A stretch of 37,334 nt of DNA from a virus. Shown here piece after piece: positions 3,011 to 18,362 of this stretch (its first letter is position 1; every line of letters starts with the position of its first letter). Where the stretch lies: the IMG/VR virus record IMGVR_UViG_3300046460_000427, positions 1-37,334 of that record. One strand, 5' to 3'. Both the position numbers and the translations under genes were made by a program. Under the pieces are notes generated by a model. It ran no database searches. It saw only the letters and a program-made list of their open reading frames with translations, and was not told where the DNA came from.

Positions 3011-3461
3011 GCTCCGCGCCAATCCCAATCAGATCGCGTTCGCTTTCGATCCGCCGCAGCCGGCGTCGCTTCCGGCCGCGCTGGCCGGCATGGATGCGCG
3101 GATCGCGCGCACCGTTGCCGAGGCGCTGAACCATGACGACCGGGACCGGTCCGTCATCGCGGCCGAGATGACCGTGCTGCTGTGCGACGAGGTCACGAAG
3201 CTGATGCTCGACGCCTATGCGAGTCCCGCGCGGGACGGCCACAATATCAGCTTCGCCCGCATGTGCGCGCTGATCGCCGTGACCAAGCGCTTCGACCTGC
3301 TCGACCGCGAGCTGCGCGAGATCGGCGCGGCCGTGCTGGTCGGCGACGAGCTGTACGCAGCGCAGGTCGGCCATCTCAGATCAGAAATCGCCAAGCTCAC
3401 CAGTCAACTGAAGACGGTGGAGCGCATGGCTCCGACCATAACGAGGAATCGCCGTAAATGA
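3003..3461 (+). CDS. Early protein of unknown function preceding the transposase (152 aa)
   Basis: Not recognised. It is a helical soluble protein: a short basic N-terminus with a Pro-rich patch, then long helices ending in a heptad-like, probably coiled-coil stretch near residues 118-140. I chose GTG at 3003 because GGAGAAGG lies 6 bases upstream and the start overlaps the previous stop. The earlier TTG at 2976 would add only an unlikely extension. The stop overlaps the transposase ATG as ATGA, so production of this protein and of transposase is probably coupled. Confidence 0.6.
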   Translation: MAKLRANPNQIAFAFDPPQPASLPAALAGMDARIARTVAEALNHDDRDRSVIAAEMTVLLCDEVTKLMLDAYASPARDGHNISFARMCALIAVTKRFDLLDRELREIGAAVLVGDELYAAQVGHLRSEIAKLTSQLKTVERMAPTITRNRRK

Positions 3462-5413
3462 TCGCTTCGGGGGGGAAGACCTGGTTTACCGCTGCTGAAA
3501 TCGCCGACCTTGGCTTGCCGGGGTTGCCGAAGACCAAACGCAAGGTGAACGAGCGCGCGGACGCGGAGAATTGGGCGGTCGCAATCGACGATGCCGGCCA
3601 TCCGCTGGCCCGGCGCCGCAATGCCCGTGGCGGGGGCACCGAATATCATGTGTCGCTGTTGCCTGCCGCCGCCCGCGCCGAGCTGGCGCATCGCGGCATG
3701 CTGTTTGTCATCACCGAAACAAACAGCGCTGACGAGCGCCGATCCGACCAGTGGCGCTGGTTTGACCGCCAGAACGAGAAGACGAAAGCGGAGGCGCATC
3801 GCCGCCTGGGCATGATCGAGAAGATCGACATGTTCGTCAGCGCCGGCCTGCTGATATCGACTGCCGTCGCCGCCGTGTCCGTCGCCGAGAAGATCGGTAA
3901 ATCGACGCTCTGGGACTATCTGGGGCTGATCGACGGCGTCACCCCGGCCGATCGCCTGCCCGCGCTGGCGCCGCGCCGGTCGGGCGGCGGCGCGGCGGCG
4001 CAGATCGACGCCGAACTGTGGCAGATGCTGCTCTCCGATTTCCTGCGCCTGTCCCAGCCCAGCTGGGAGAGCTGCTACCGCCGCGCCGCCGAGGCCGCCA
4101 AAGAGCGCGGCCTGGCGATCCCGCACAGCCGCACGCTGTTCCGCAAGCTGGAAGCCGAGGTGCCGCCGCAGGTCATCACCATCCGCCGCAAGGGCGAGGA
4201 AGCCCTGCGCCGCATGCTGCCCCCGCAAATCAGGAGCGTCGCCGAGATGCATGCCATGGAACTGGTGAATATCGACGGTCATCGATGCGACGTGTTCGTG
4301 CGCTGGCCGGACGGCACGATCGCGCGCCCCACGCTGGTCGCCATCCAGGACGTCTACAGCCGCAAGTTCCTGGCATGGCGCGTGGCCGAGAGCGAGGACA
4401 TGGTCACGGCCCGGCTGGTGTTCGCCGACCTGTTCGCCAAATGGGGAATCCCCAAGGGGCTGCTGTCCGACAATGGCCGCGCCTTCGCCTCCAAATGGCT
4501 GACCGGCGGCGCCAAGACGCGCTTCCGCTTCAAGGTCCGGGAGGAGGAACCGACCGGCGTGCTGACCGCCCTGGGCGTGAAGATCCATTGGGCAAAGCCT
4601 TATCGCGGCCAGTCCAAGCCGATCGAGCGCGGCTTTCGCGACTTCTGCGACGCGATCGCCAAGCATCCCGCTTTCGAGGGCGCCTATACCGGCAATTCGC
4701 CGCTGGCGAAGCCAGAGAACTACGCCAGCAGGGCGATCGACCTGGACGTGTTCCTGCAAGTCTGGGACGCGGGCATCGCCGAACATAATCGCCGCCTCGG
4801 CCGCCGGACCGAGATGGGCGCCGGCCAGCGCAGCTTCGACGAGGTGTTCGAGGAAAGCTATGTCCGCTCGCCAATCGGCAAGGCGACCGACGAGCAGCTG
4901 CGCCTCGCCCTCTATGCCGCCGATCAGGTCAGCACCGATCGCAAGACGGGCGCCGTCAGGCTGGCGGGGAACAGCTACTGGTGCGAGGAACTCGCCCAGA
5001 TCGTCGGCGAGAAGGTGACGATCCGCTTCGATCCCGAGGACCTGACCAAGCCCGTGCACGTCTATGACCGGGCCGGGCGCTTCCTCTGCACCGCGCCGCT
5101 CTGGCAGGCCACCGGCTTCCTCGACATGGCGGCGGCCAAGGACCGCCAGCGCCTCGAAAAGCGGCACCAGAAGGCCACGCGCGAAGCCGAAAAGGCACTT
5201 GGCCTGCTCTCCGCCGCCCAGCTGGTGGAGAAGCTGCCCACCTATGACGAGGAGCAGGCTCCGCCCAGCCCGCGCCCGACCATCACCCGCATGGTGCGCC
5301 ATCGCGGCCAGACTGCGGCGGCTCTCAAGGCCGTCTCAGAGCCCTCTCAGGAAGCCCTGCACACGGCGAACGTCGATCGCTTCACCAACGCTGCGCTGCG
5401 CCTGATCAAATAG
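3458..5413 (+). CDS. A: Mu-type transposase A (DDE recombinase, 651 aa)
   Basis: Catalyses end cleavage and strand transfer in replicative transposition. The N-terminal 65 residues match the Mu-type DNA-binding domain (GLPGLPKTKRKVNERA near residues 21-36). The RNase H-like core carries the catalytic triad as D273 (NIDGHRCD), D338 (SDNGRAF) and E390 (KPIERGF), almost the same positions as D269, D336 and E392 of MuA. The beta-barrel follows (about 490-560) and the last 80 residues are a basic helical tail, as expected for the MuB/ClpX-contacting region. Length is close to MuA (663). The start is an ATGA overlap with the preceding gene; 13 bases separate it from the B gene. It appears intact and active. 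Confidence 0.97.
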   Translation: MIASGGKTWFTAAEIADLGLPGLPKTKRKVNERADAENWAVAIDDAGHPLARRRNARGGGTEYHVSLLPAAARAELAHRGMLFVITETNSADERRSDQWRWFDRQNEKTKAEAHRRLGMIEKIDMFVSAGLLISTAVAAVSVAEKIGKSTLWDYLGLIDGVTPADRLPALAPRRSGGGAAAQIDAELWQMLLSDFLRLSQPSWESCYRRAAEAAKERGLAIPHSRTLFRKLEAEVPPQVITIRRKGEEALRRMLPPQIRSVAEMHAMELVNIDGHRCDVFVRWPDGTIARPTLVAIQDVYSRKFLAWRVAESEDMVTARLVFADLFAKWGIPKGLLSDNGRAFASKWLTGGAKTRFRFKVREEEPTGVLTALGVKIHWAKPYRGQSKPIERGFRDFCDAIAKHPAFEGAYTGNSPLAKPENYASRAIDLDVFLQVWDAGIAEHNRRLGRRTEMGAGQRSFDEVFEESYVRSPIGKATDEQLRLALYAADQVSTDRKTGAVRLAGNSYWCEELAQIVGEKVTIRFDPEDLTKPVHVYDRAGRFLCTAPLWQATGFLDMAAAKDRQRLEKRHQKATREAEKALGLLSAAQLVEKLPTYDEEQAPPSPRPTITRMVRHRGQTAAALKAVSEPSQEALHTANVDRFTNAALRLIK

Positions 5414-5426
5414 AAAGGACCGATCC

Positions 5427-6386
5427 ATGAACCACCCCGACACGCTGCCCATCGACATCGACGAAATGCGGGCATGGGCCAATGGCTACAAAACCGAAAA
5501 GGGGCTGAGCTGGAAGCAGTTCGGCGACGAAACCGGCCTGCCGGGCGGCACCCTCCAGCCCTTCTGCACGGGCAAATATGCCGGCGACAACGGCCGCATC
5601 GCCCGTGAAATCTTCAAGTTCATGCAGGCGGTCCAGAGCCGCATCGCGCGCCGCCAGGGCATTCCCGTCGATCCGGGCTTTTTCGAGACGCCGACCTCGC
5701 TGCGCGTGCGCGGCCTGCTGGCGATCGCGCAGACCGGCCGGATCACCTTCGGCGCGATGGGCGCCGGCCTGGGCAAGACGCGCACGGCGGAGGATTTCGC
5801 CGAGCGCACCCGCCCTGTCTGGCTCGCCACCATGCGCGAATCCTCGCGCAAGATGAACGCCATGATCCAGACCGTGGAGCGGGTGATAGGCCTTCAGGCG
5901 ACGCGCAGCTGGCCGCACCTCATCAGCCAGGAGATCGTCGTCAAGATGCGCGGGCAGCGCGGCACCCTGATCATCGACGAGGCGAACCACCTGGAATATG
6001 CCGCCTTCGAGGAAATCCGGGCATGGCATGATGCCACCGGCGTCGGCGTGTGCTTCCTTGGCAATGAGGAGCTGCTCGCCCGCATCGAGAGCGGGCGCCA
6101 GCGCGACGCCTTCGCCCGCCTCAACAGCCGCATCGCGCAGCGCCTGGTGCAGAACCTGCCCGACCAGGGCGACATCACGGCGTTCTGCGATGCCTGGGGC
6201 ATCATGGACCCCGGCATGCGCCGTATCCTGTCCGACGTCGCGCTGGTTCCGGGTTCGGGAGGCCTGCGCGAATGCCGGCAGATCGTCGAGGCGGCGTCGA
6301 TGCTCGCCGCCGACGACGGTGATGGGCTGGAACTCGCGCACATGACCTTCGCGGTGGAAAACCGCGCCCGCCGGATCCTGCGCTGA
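5427..6386 (+). CDS. B: Mu-type target-activating ATPase B (319 aa)
   Basis: MuB-like AAA ATPase that coats target DNA, delivers it to transposase and gives target immunity. Residues 10-65 form an HTH-like N-terminal domain, as in MuB. The ATPase core has Walker A GAGLGKT at 112-118 and Walker B LIIDEA at 181-186, then a sensor-like GNEELL. Length is close to MuB (312). A Shine-Dalgarno (AAAGGA) lies about 7 bases before the ATG. It follows A directly, as in Mu, and its stop overlaps the next small gene. Confidence 0.95.
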   Translation: MNHPDTLPIDIDEMRAWANGYKTEKGLSWKQFGDETGLPGGTLQPFCTGKYAGDNGRIAREIFKFMQAVQSRIARRQGIPVDPGFFETPTSLRVRGLLAIAQTGRITFGAMGAGLGKTRTAEDFAERTRPVWLATMRESSRKMNAMIQTVERVIGLQATRSWPHLISQEIVVKMRGQRGTLIIDEANHLEYAAFEEIRAWHDATGVGVCFLGNEELLARIESGRQRDAFARLNSRIAQRLVQNLPDQGDITAFCDAWGIMDPGMRRILSDVALVPGSGGLRECRQIVEAASMLAADDGDGLELAHMTFAVENRARRILR

Positions 6387-6550
6387 TGCGCGCGCTGCAT
6401 CGCATCTGGACCGTCGCGACGACGGCCCCGGCGACTGGCGCGCGCTATCCGCGTGCCGTCATCGTCAGGGCGGCGGCAGTGATGCTGATCGCCATGGTCG
6501 CCGTGCCCGCCGCGATCGCGGCCATGCTCGCGCTGGAGCCCGCCCGGTGA
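6386..6550 (+). CDS. Small single-pass membrane protein (54 aa)
   Basis: This short frame fits exactly between the B gene and the DnaA-like gene: its ATG overlaps the B stop (TGATG) and its TGA overlaps the next GTG start. A positively charged N-terminus (about residues 1-28) is followed by one hydrophobic segment of about 21 residues (VRAAAVMLIAMVAVPAAIAA, 27-46, continuing slightly) and a very short tail, so an inner-membrane anchor with the N-terminus inside is likely. Function is unknown. Placement by perfect overlaps on both sides is the main support. Confidence 0.6.
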   Translation: MRALHRIWTVATTAPATGARYPRAVIVRAAAVMLIAMVAVPAAIAAMLALEPAR

Positions 6551-6969
6551 GCGCGCCGCAGACCCTTGAGGAACTGAGGCGGAAAGTTGCCGCCGTGCTG
6601 GCGCAGCTGCCGCCGGTCACGCCCGACGCGGCGTTGGGATGCCGGCCATTTGCCGGGATCGAGCTTCCCTATGTCCGACTGAACGACATCCTGCGCGCCG
6701 TCGCCTTTGAGACCGGGCTGAGGGCAGACGACATTCGCGGCCCACGCCGCTTCCGGCTGTTGTTCCGCGCCCGTGCGGCCGTGTGCTGGCTCGCCCGGCG
6801 GCTGACCGGACAGAGCCTGCCGAGGATCGCTGCACTGCTGGGCGACCGGCACCACACGTCGGTCCTGAATGCCATCGCGCGGGCCGAAGCGCTGCGCGCG
6901 AGCGACCCCGCATTCCGCCGGATGACCGACCGCCTGGTCATCCAGTTTTCCCCGCCGAAGGAGCAATGA
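6547..6969 (+). CDS. DnaA domain IV-like DNA-binding protein (140 aa)
   Basis: Residues about 45-118 match the C-terminal DNA-binding domain of the replication initiator DnaA: a long helix with basic residues (RARAAVCWLARRLTGQS), then the HTH signature GDRHHTSVLNAI at 99-110, comparable with GGRDHTTVLHA in DnaA. There is no AAA ATPase domain, so it cannot act as a full initiator. It could bind DnaA-box-like sites, compete with host DnaA, or act as a transcription factor. It starts with GTG overlapping the preceding stop and ends in an ATGA overlap with gemA. In Mu this interval holds kil/gam-type genes, which I do not see here. Confidence 0.8.
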   Translation: MSAPQTLEELRRKVAAVLAQLPPVTPDAALGCRPFAGIELPYVRLNDILRAVAFETGLRADDIRGPRRFRLLFRARAAVCWLARRLTGQSLPRIAALLGDRHHTSVLNAIARAEALRASDPAFRRMTDRLVIQFSPPKEQ

Positions 6970-7670
6970 CCATGGGCATGCCCGCACCGAAATTCGCGAC
7001 CGATCCGCACCGCCGCGCGCTGATCGCGAAGGTCAAGATCGCGCAGAAGGAACTCGGCCTGGACGAAGACACCTATCGCGGTGTCCTGCTGGAGGTGACG
7101 GGCCGGCTGAGCGCTGCCGACTGCACCGACGCGCAGTTGGGCAAGCTGGTCGAGCATTTCCGCCAGCATGGGTTCAAGCCGAAGTCCGCCCGCAAGCCCG
7201 GCATGGCGCGGCTCGCCGACCATCCATCGGCCCGCAAGGCGCGTGCGATGTGGATCTCGCTCTATAACCTCGGCGCGATCGACAATGCTTCGGAGCAGGC
7301 GCTGGAGGCCTTCGCGCGCCGCCAACTGGACGTCGCGGCGCTGCAATGGGCGAACCAGACCCAGTGCTACAAGCTGATCGAGGCGCTCAAGGCCATCGCC
7401 GAGCGCCATGGATGGCCCCAGCGCGCGGACTATGTGCCCGCGATCCACGCCCATCACGCGCTGAAATATGCGCTCGTCGAGGCGATCGTCGCGAAGCTCA
7501 AGAGTACCGATCTGGCACATTCCGGCTGGTCGATAGCGGAAACCGCCTATCGTCTCTGTGGCATCGGCGATGGTGTTCACGGCATCTTCGAAAGCAGCGA
7601 TCTGGATCAGATTGCCCGGTCGCTCGGCGCGAAACTGCGCGCCTTTGCCCCGGCATCGAAGGGGGCATGA
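6966..7670 (+). CDS. gemA: GemA/gp16-family regulatory protein (234 aa)
   Basis: The N-terminal half matches the Mu GemA (gp16) family: HRRALIAKVKIAQKELGLDE, followed by the TYRGVLLEVTG and GFKPK blocks typical of the family. GemA of Mu is reported to alter host gene expression and DNA topology. The C-terminal half is helical with conserved-looking Trp residues. The start ATG at 6966 overlaps the previous stop; a second ATG two codons later is also usable. It lies just upstream of the Mor-family activator, as in many Mu-like phages, and overlaps the next small gene by ATGA. Confidence 0.85.
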   Translation: MTMGMPAPKFATDPHRRALIAKVKIAQKELGLDEDTYRGVLLEVTGRLSAADCTDAQLGKLVEHFRQHGFKPKSARKPGMARLADHPSARKARAMWISLYNLGAIDNASEQALEAFARRQLDVAALQWANQTQCYKLIEALKAIAERHGWPQRADYVPAIHAHHALKYALVEAIVAKLKSTDLAHSGWSIAETAYRLCGIGDGVHGIFESSDLDQIARSLGAKLRAFAPASKGA

Positions 7671-7864: not shown

Positions 7865-8251
7865 ATGGCGAAGCCCAGGGCCACCCATCCCAGCCACTCC
7901 CCGGAGTTTGGCAATGTGGCCGGCATCATCGGTGATGCCGCGACGATGGCCCTGTGCGAGCGTTTCGGCGGGGTGCGCCTCTACATTCCCCGCCATATCA
8001 GCCCCACCAATCCGATCGCGCAGGCGGTCGGCATCGATGCGGCGAACCGCCTTGCCGAATATCTGCACGGCACGAATATCGACCTGCCCAAGGCCTATCT
8101 CGGCCGCCGCCGCGTGATCGAGATGAAGGGACAGGGTTTCAACGCCCGGCAAATAGCACTTGCCACGGGCTACACGGATCGTCACGTTCGCCACATTCTG
8201 GCAGATGCCCGCGAAGACGATGGGCAGATGACGTTCCCCGGTATGTTCTGA
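7865..8251 (+). CDS. mor: Mor/C-family transcriptional activator of late genes (128 aa)
   Basis: Length (128, against 129 for Mu Mor) and pattern fit the Mor family. An N-terminal dimerisation helix region is followed by ERFGGVRLYIPR at residues 32-43, the Gly-Gly/Tyr-Ile-Pro strand signature. The C-terminal HTH lies at about 90-113 (GQGFNARQIALATGYTDRHV). Mor proteins bind an inverted repeat just upstream of -35 and recruit RNA polymerase. The gene is last in the early/middle operon and faces a 61-bp gap holding a palindrome shared with the other late promoter region. No second C-like gene is visible, so it may serve as both Mor and C. Confidence 0.92.
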   Translation: MAKPRATHPSHSPEFGNVAGIIGDAATMALCERFGGVRLYIPRHISPTNPIAQAVGIDAANRLAEYLHGTNIDLPKAYLGRRRVIEMKGQGFNARQIALATGYTDRHVRHILADAREDDGQMTFPGMF

Positions 8252-17189: not shown

Positions 17190-18362
17190 ATGGCCGACGA
17201 TGCCGAGCCCGATATCCCGCTGGTAAAGCCGCTTGAGGCCCTGCGCTTTTTCCGCGCCAAGGGCTTCTCGTTCGGTTTCGCCTGGCAGGATGTGTGGCAG
17301 GAAGAACATGCCCGCGCCTTCACCGTCGCCAAGGCAATGACCCGAGACCTGCTGGAAGATCTCCGCGCGGCGGTGGATACCGCGATCGACCAGGGCGAGA
17401 CGCTGGCGCAGTTCGGCAAGAAGCTGCGCCCCATCCTGGCAGAAAAGGGCTGGTGGGGTCGCAAGCTGATGGCGGACCCGGAGACGGGCGAGGAACGGGT
17501 CGTGCAGCTGGGCAGCCCGCGCCGGCTGAAGACGATTTATCGCATCAACATGCGCACGGCTCAGACGGCGGGCCGATGGGAACGCATCCAGCGGTCGAAG
17601 AAGTTGTTCCCGTATCTTCGCAAGGTCTCGGTGATGGATGGCCGCGAGCGACCGGAGCATCATGTCTGGCACGGCACAATCCTGCTGGTGGATGATCCCT
17701 GGTGGGATACTCATGCAGGACAATGCGGCTGGGGCTGTCGCTGCCAGGATCAACCCGTCAATCAGCGGATGATGGATGCGAAAGGCTGGACGGTCACACG
17801 TCAGCCCGTGCGTTTTCCCATGGTGGATTACGTCAATCCGCGCACGGGCGAGATCACGCGGCTGGAGCGCGGGATCGATCCAGGCTGGGCGTACAATGTC
17901 GGCAAGGCCGCGCTCGACGGGCAGACGCCACCGCCGCTAGGGCCGGGCAGCGATGTCGCCGCAGCGCGCGGCGTTACCGTCGCCGATCTCGATCCCTTCT
18001 TCGCTGCCTTCGGCCTTGCCGAGAGCGCGATCGCGCGCGGCCGGATCTTCACCGACCAGGGCGGCTGGCCGCTGGCGATCTCGCTCGGGCTGTTCCGCGA
18101 TGCCGGTGGCCGGCTGGAGCTGCCCGATCGCGCCCGCATCCGCCATCTGCCTGCCGTCGCCACCGCGATCGTCGATCCGGTCGAGATCCGCTGGCGCTGG
18201 GTGCGCGGGGCCGATGGCACCATGCTGCTGATGCGGCGCTACATCGGCACGGACGCCGTTGTCGATTTCGGCCGGGTCGGCTGGCGTTTCCATGCGCGCG
18301 GGGAACGCGGGTTCAGCGCCGCGCGCCATGCCCAGGGAACCATGGCCTGGACAGAACCGTAA
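17190..18362 (+). CDS. Minor head protein (F/gp30-like, SPP1 gp7 type) with C-terminal nuclease-toxin-like domain (390 aa)
   Basis: Residues about 10-215 match the minor head morphogenesis family: a helical region (ALRFFRAKGFSFGFAWQDVW), INMRTAQTAGRW near 119-130, and the Cys/His-rich end HAGQCGWGCRC at 175-185. After a linker, residues about 265-370 resemble the PBECR (phage-Barnase-EndoU-Colicin-RelE-like) nuclease domains found fused to such proteins: IFTDQGGWPLAIS, LPDRARIRHLPAVATAI, DPVEIRWRW and LLMRRYIG. Minor head proteins can be ejected with DNA, so the domain could act in the new host cell. It is the last gene before a 118-base gap and a candidate promoter. Confidence 0.85.
   Translation: MADDAEPDIPLVKPLEALRFFRAKGFSFGFAWQDVWQEEHARAFTVAKAMTRDLLEDLRAAVDTAIDQGETLAQFGKKLRPILAEKGWWGRKLMADPETGEERVVQLGSPRRLKTIYRINMRTAQTAGRWERIQRSKKLFPYLRKVSVMDGRERPEHHVWHGTILLVDDPWWDTHAGQCGWGCRCQDQPVNQRMMDAKGWTVTRQPVRFPMVDYVNPRTGEITRLERGIDPGWAYNVGKAALDGQTPPPLGPGSDVAAARGVTVADLDPFFAAFGLAESAIARGRIFTDQGGWPLAISLGLFRDAGGRLELPDRARIRHLPAVATAIVDPVEIRWRWVRGADGTMLLMRRYIGTDAVVDFGRVGWRFHARGERGFSAARHAQGTMAWTEP

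Follow-up and report, generated by a model that had tools for sequence, protein, structure and literature searches.

A lone DnaA domain IV encoded between the MuB and gemA genes of Mu-like phages, a possible competitor for host DnaA sites

The DNA analysed here, called the window throughout, is the whole of an IMG/VR virus record of 37,334 bases, on which the Mu-type genes for MuA, MuB, GemA, Mor, the Mu portal, Gp27, F and GpP lie together. With PF02914, PF09077, PF06252 and PF08765 and the Mu-type head genes on one contig, it belongs to a Mu-like transposable phage. Between MuB and GemA, where a sequence-only reading had already placed it, lies a 140-aa open reading frame with a GTG start and a TGA stop, which we call the DnaA-IV gene and whose features and neighbours are collected in Table 1. 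The genes of this interval overlap one after the other, with TGATG shared by the end of MuB and the start of a 54-aa hydrophobic ORF, GTGA by the end of this ORF and the start of the DnaA-IV gene, and ATGA by the end of the DnaA-IV gene and the start of gemA. The GC content of the gene by codon position (0.73/0.53/0.83) is similar to that of the adjoining genes. Small hydrophobic ORFs recur at the place of the 54-aa ORF in many of the related loci, whether a DnaA-IV gene is present or not.

Table 1. Genes and protein features of the MuA to Mor region, in window positions
Feature	Position	Strand	Evidence
MuA transposase	3458..5413	+	PF02914 E=1.1e-60
MuB transposition protein (AAA+)	5427..6386	+	PF09077 and PF13401
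Small hydrophobic ORF, 54 aa	6386..6550	+	ORF list, junction sequences
DnaA-IV protein, 140 aa	6547..6969	+	PF08299, 1j1v, fold match
N-terminal helix (predicted), residues 7-20, outside domain IV	6565..6606	+	DSSP of model
Complete domain IV fold (predicted), residues 43-136	6673..6954	+	VIA-align of AlphaFold model
Basic loop region, residues 65-76, GPRRFRLLFRAR; equivalents of R399, R401, R407	6739..6774	+	Alignment, E. coli numbering
Helix-turn-helix, residues 91-119; recognition helix begins at GDRHHTSVLNAI	6817..6903	+	DSSP of model, alignment
GemA	6966..7670	+	PF06252 E=8.3e-33
Mor-type activator	7865..8251	+	PF08765 E=4.8e-9

The evidence strongly supports the identification of this protein as a stand-alone DnaA domain IV without the ATPase. 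Its sole Pfam match is PF08299, Bac_DnaA_C (E=6.2e-16; 58.6 bits against a gathering cut-off of 31.5), which aligns protein residues 46-111 with profile positions 2-67 of 69, and its top PDB sequence match is 1j1v, the domain IV of E. coli DnaA (E=2.9e-8). The NCBIfam DnaA model TIGR00362 was matched over its last 89 columns only, the 56 bits falling short of its cut-off of 344, and the Pfam and NCBIfam searches found in the 140-aa protein neither the AAA+ domain III nor the helicase-binding domain I of a full-length DnaA. A full DnaA or an AAA+ fragment within the ORF is thus ruled out, and the AAA+ protein next door is MuB, separate from the DnaA-IV protein; the earlier suggestion of a lone domain IV lacking the ATPase therefore holds on both counts. 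NCBIfam NF004688 (PRK06030), which collects small proteins that match the C-terminal domain of DnaA, is hit by the window protein (P0001) at E=0.014, a membership that was rejected because the score of 15.5 bits is below the cut-off of 136. Among the PHROGs, P0001 matched phrog_27829 at E=0.011 only, and no single PHROG covering the family was found, its members being scattered over weak, mostly unnamed PHROGs.

The predicted structure, whose comparison with domain IV the same reading had proposed as a check, agrees with this identification. An AlphaFold model built with 36 family members (pLDDT 89.7) was aligned by VIA-align to 1j1v with Z 18.4 and an rmsd of 1.0 Å over 94 of 94 residues, so that model residues 43-136 would be equivalent to E. 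coli DnaA 374-467, that is, to the complete domain IV fold. The M. tuberculosis DnaA chain 3PVP scored Z 17.6, and the best chain of a non-DnaA protein reached Z 6.0; with DnaA chains ahead by about 12 Z units, membership of another HTH family, which had been named as part of the outcome that would count against the proposal, is ruled out. Outside domain IV, the model predicts an N-terminal helix (residues 7-20), possibly for dimerisation, and a low-confidence linker.

The residues that would touch DNA are largely kept. We counted conservation in 46 phage members, numbered on E. coli DnaA, at contact positions that we take to be those of the 1J1V structure paper: R399 is kept in 42, R407 in 45, S421 in 42, R432 in 41, D433 in 34 (74%) and H434 in 40 members, while T or S stands at 435 in 34/46 and at 436 in 41/46. 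Thus, R399, R407, S421 and H434 are each present in >85% of the phage members, and the window protein keeps all four together with T435. It also carries the changes D433H, T436S (conservative), H439N and Q408A, and at the six contact positions R399, R407, D433, H434, T435 and T436 it reads R, R, H, H, T and S. The helix-turn-helix signature had been said to match that of DnaA, and this is loose in one detail of the motif, in which His replaces the Asp (E. coli D433) of the DnaA R-D-H-T, giving GDRHHTSVLNAI; most relatives keep the Asp, and H433 is also found in 1 of 30 chromosomal DnaAs. Because of these four substitutions, the site of the window protein may differ from TTATCCACA. In a subgroup of loci (L081, L090, L091, L104 and L110), the ORF 5' of gemA has RRHGV in place of RDHTT in the recognition helix, a replacement by which its DNA site has probably changed, and this subgroup together with the window substitutions implies that site specificity probably varies across the DnaA-IV family. 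Agreement with the chromosomal consensus is higher at contact positions than elsewhere (0.53 vs 0.28, p=0.005), and 0.57 vs 0.42 (p=0.10) when only those positions are compared that do not vary among chromosomal DnaAs. In close pairs of relatives, dN/dS is 0.02-0.38, and the DnaA-IV family is under purifying selection.

For the distribution of the gene, an IMG/VR scan was anchored on GemA, not on the DnaA-IV protein, and the best 80 of 250 relatives were kept, a sample that leans toward GemAs resembling that of the window. Of these best 80 loci, 49 have a member by the DnaA-IV profile, as do 28 of 48 clusters after GemA clustering at 80% identity, and in 47 of the 49 the gene lies immediately 5' of gemA, commonly with the identical 4-base overlap. 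The MuB-GemA interval of the remaining 31 holds small hydrophobic ORFs, unrelated ORFs or nothing; hence, the gene is dispensable for this phage type. Two loci, L046 and L162, show the reversed order, gemA followed by DnaA-IV, and in L063:3-1196 the domain lies inside an ORF of up to 397 aa 5' of gemA, possibly a fusion with further domains. An evenly drawn set of 385 alphaproteobacterial genomes yielded 25 GemA loci, and DnaA-IV lies within about 1.5 kb of GemA in only 3 of them, two being identical copies in one genome, from which we take DnaA-IV to be an accessory gene that some of the Mu-like phages carry. The genome G679 carries two matching prophage loci with GemA and DnaA-IV, at C1:395807 and C1:3950648 (L046 and L067), which suggests recent transposition or duplication. 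Among 398 Sphingomonadales genomes, a related prophage was found in 9, seven of which have the DnaA-IV gene; five of the seven regions fetched have it between MuB and GemA, as has G289, and in G002 it is truncated by the contig end. From these nearest kin, the host of the window phage may be a sphingomonad. With P0001 and three other members as tblastn queries, no Mu-like phage of Pseudomonas or Escherichia was among the matches listed, and when the profile was run on eight named phage regions, none of the six GemA phages had a DnaA-IV gene, the only two positives being non-Mu phages picked for their DnaA-IV match.

In a tree of domain IV sequences, which is short and weakly resolved, 43 of the 46 phage members group together with deep divergence inside the family, and L074, L093 and L162 fall on the chromosomal side. 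The L046 and L162 domains resemble chromosomal DnaA more than they do the main phage group. The protein of L074, which occupies the MuB-GemA slot, shares about 63% identity over 77 residues with the domains of chromosomal DnaA and looks like a second, separate capture of a host domain into the same slot (branch support 82% SH-aLRT), and such an apparent second capture argues that the slot selects for DnaA-type DNA recognition.

The domain IV of DnaA is by itself enough for specific double-stranded binding (PMC5835720). The DnaA box consensus TTWTNCACA is absent from the 37,334-base window (0.35 expected), boxes with 1 or 2 mismatches occur there at chance level, and the 49 related loci hold 4 boxes against 5.9 expected, with no enrichment specific to the gene-bearing loci. 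Binding at the phage ends, as had been proposed, is thus unsupported, and, given a phage whose DnaA boxes do not exceed chance, the host chromosome is the likelier place for the targets, or else the specificity is no longer that of DnaA.

We rank first, tentatively and with somewhat less than even confidence, an early decoy that would compete with the host DnaA for DnaA boxes; a phage regulator comes second, followed by a partner of MuB and then by an interactor of Hda or DnaA. In the proposed mechanism, a DnaA domain IV paralogue, presumably retained as an early, gemA-coupled gene by Mu-like phages that infect Alphaproteobacteria, would be expressed early in the lytic cycle alongside MuA, MuB and GemA, would bind double-stranded DnaA-box-like sites, and would be unable to bind ATP, melt origins or load the helicase. 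As a passive competitor, it would occupy host DnaA boxes at oriC and at DnaA-controlled promoters, leading to fewer new chromosomal initiations or to shifted DnaA-dependent transcription, and meanwhile the phage would exploit host forks for replicative transposition. In DnaA, domains I and III load the helicase; since both are missing here, melting and helicase loading would not occur, a competitor or regulator is likelier than an initiator, and the hijacking of initiation by helicase recruitment that the sequence-only reading envisaged becomes unlikely. Blocking of the host DnaA at host sites is our best guess, and judging from the sequence it fits the contact residues that are conserved. We count for the decoy the full fold match, the kept contacts, the fixed slot (also in the Sphingomonadales prophages), the low dN/dS, the L074 capture, the ability of domain IV to bind by itself and the chance level of DnaA boxes on the phage, and against it the recognition-helix changes in the window and in subgroups, the p=0.10 of the restricted test and the 31/80 loci that do without the gene.

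If the decoy is real, the transposable phages concerned, which form a large group, control host chromosome initiation with a minimal part of the host initiator itself, a natural dominant-negative DnaA that would also be a small tool to arrest initiation in Alphaproteobacteria. In these bacteria, DnaA is also part of the cell-cycle programme.

The recognition-helix changes of the window (D433H, H439N) and of several subgroups, the position of the DnaA-IV gene two genes 5' of the Mor-type activator, and a phage devoid of DnaA boxes would also fit a phage transcription regulator built on the domain IV scaffold, reading its own altered site and acting on the middle/late switch or on its own operon rather than on DnaA boxes of the host. 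We consider this unlikely, although less so than the readings that follow, given that most members keep R399 and H434, that the almost unchanged host domain of L074 fills the same slot, and that no candidate for such an own site was found.

Quite unlikely, in our judgement, is a partnership with MuB, in which the two would form a split DnaA-like pair, with the DnaA-IV protein as its DNA-binding half, that steers target choice or replisome recruitment in replicative transposition. The constant MuB-GemA position with overlapping reading frames speaks for it, as does the Bac_DnaA_C tail found also on REP-type tyrosine transposases, where domain IV is likewise tied to transposition and a connection with the replication fork has been suggested (PMC6006769); in that case the domain is fused to an HUH transposase, whereas the window encodes it on its own, next to a DDE transposase and MuB. 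The partnership is hard to reconcile with the 31/80 loci that have MuA and MuB and no DnaA-IV gene, and with L046 and L162, where DnaA-IV is 3' of gemA. Its fullest form, a split pair whose DnaA-box recognition steers replicative transposition or replisome recruitment to origin-proximal DNA, has only a slim chance of being right, and if true it would tie transposition to host replication control.

DnaA domain IV is also a partner of Hda in the regulatory inactivation of DnaA, and Keyamura and Katayama reportedly described in 2011 the binding of Hda by the DNA-binding domain of DnaA. This would favour an action through protein contact, with the phage protein titrating HdaA or altering DnaA inactivation, an improbable reading given that the best conserved residues in the family are those that contact DNA. 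That the gene is what remains, without function, of a host dnaA once captured is hardly credible: its absence from 31/80 loci means that this type of phage can do without it, but the remnant is largely refuted already by a dN/dS well below 1 in the close pairs compared, and the fixed slot with overlapping frames and the deep divergence inside the family stand against it as well.

Compared with known systems, the window protein has the fold and most DNA-contact residues in common with the bacterial DnaA domain IV (PF08299; 1J1V, 3PVP) and differs from bacterial DnaA in lacking domains I-III, in its extra N-terminal helix (a prediction of the model), and in D433H and H439N. DnaA domain IV proteins annotated without function are known from other phages of Alphaproteobacteria, namely the Rhizobium phage RHph_N28_2, the Pelagibacter phage Greip and the Aurantimonas phage AmM-1, and two further phage DnaA C-terminal proteins, annotated as hypothetical, were recognised in this analysis. 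In the regions viewed, the RHph_N28_2 and AmM-1 genes, unlike that of the window, are not in Mu-like transposition operons, and AmM-1 encodes a longer protein (about 396 aa), with primase genes around it. The phage or prophage proteins YfdR and lambda P act on host DnaA by binding it (PMC4776307); they have no homology to DnaA and share with the window protein only its proposed role. Phage DnaA C-terminal proteins are thus already known, and what appears to be new is a positionally conserved family in Mu-like phages, a description of the DnaA-IV gene in transposable phages having been found nowhere in the open-access literature searched. GemA is near-universal yet poorly understood in transposable phages (PMC8705779; PMC12407980), and the proposed decoy would offer a testable function for the poorly understood MuB-GemA interval.

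Two further genes of the window deserve mention. The Mu F-like head protein (17190-18362) has a C-terminal PBECR2 domain (E=3e-7), which is a predicted phage-borne nuclease of the Barnase/EndoU/ColicinE5/RelE-like kind, and an early ORF of 254 aa (622-1386), without a Pfam match, contains FNPPYS, which resembles the NPPY of adenine methyltransferases.
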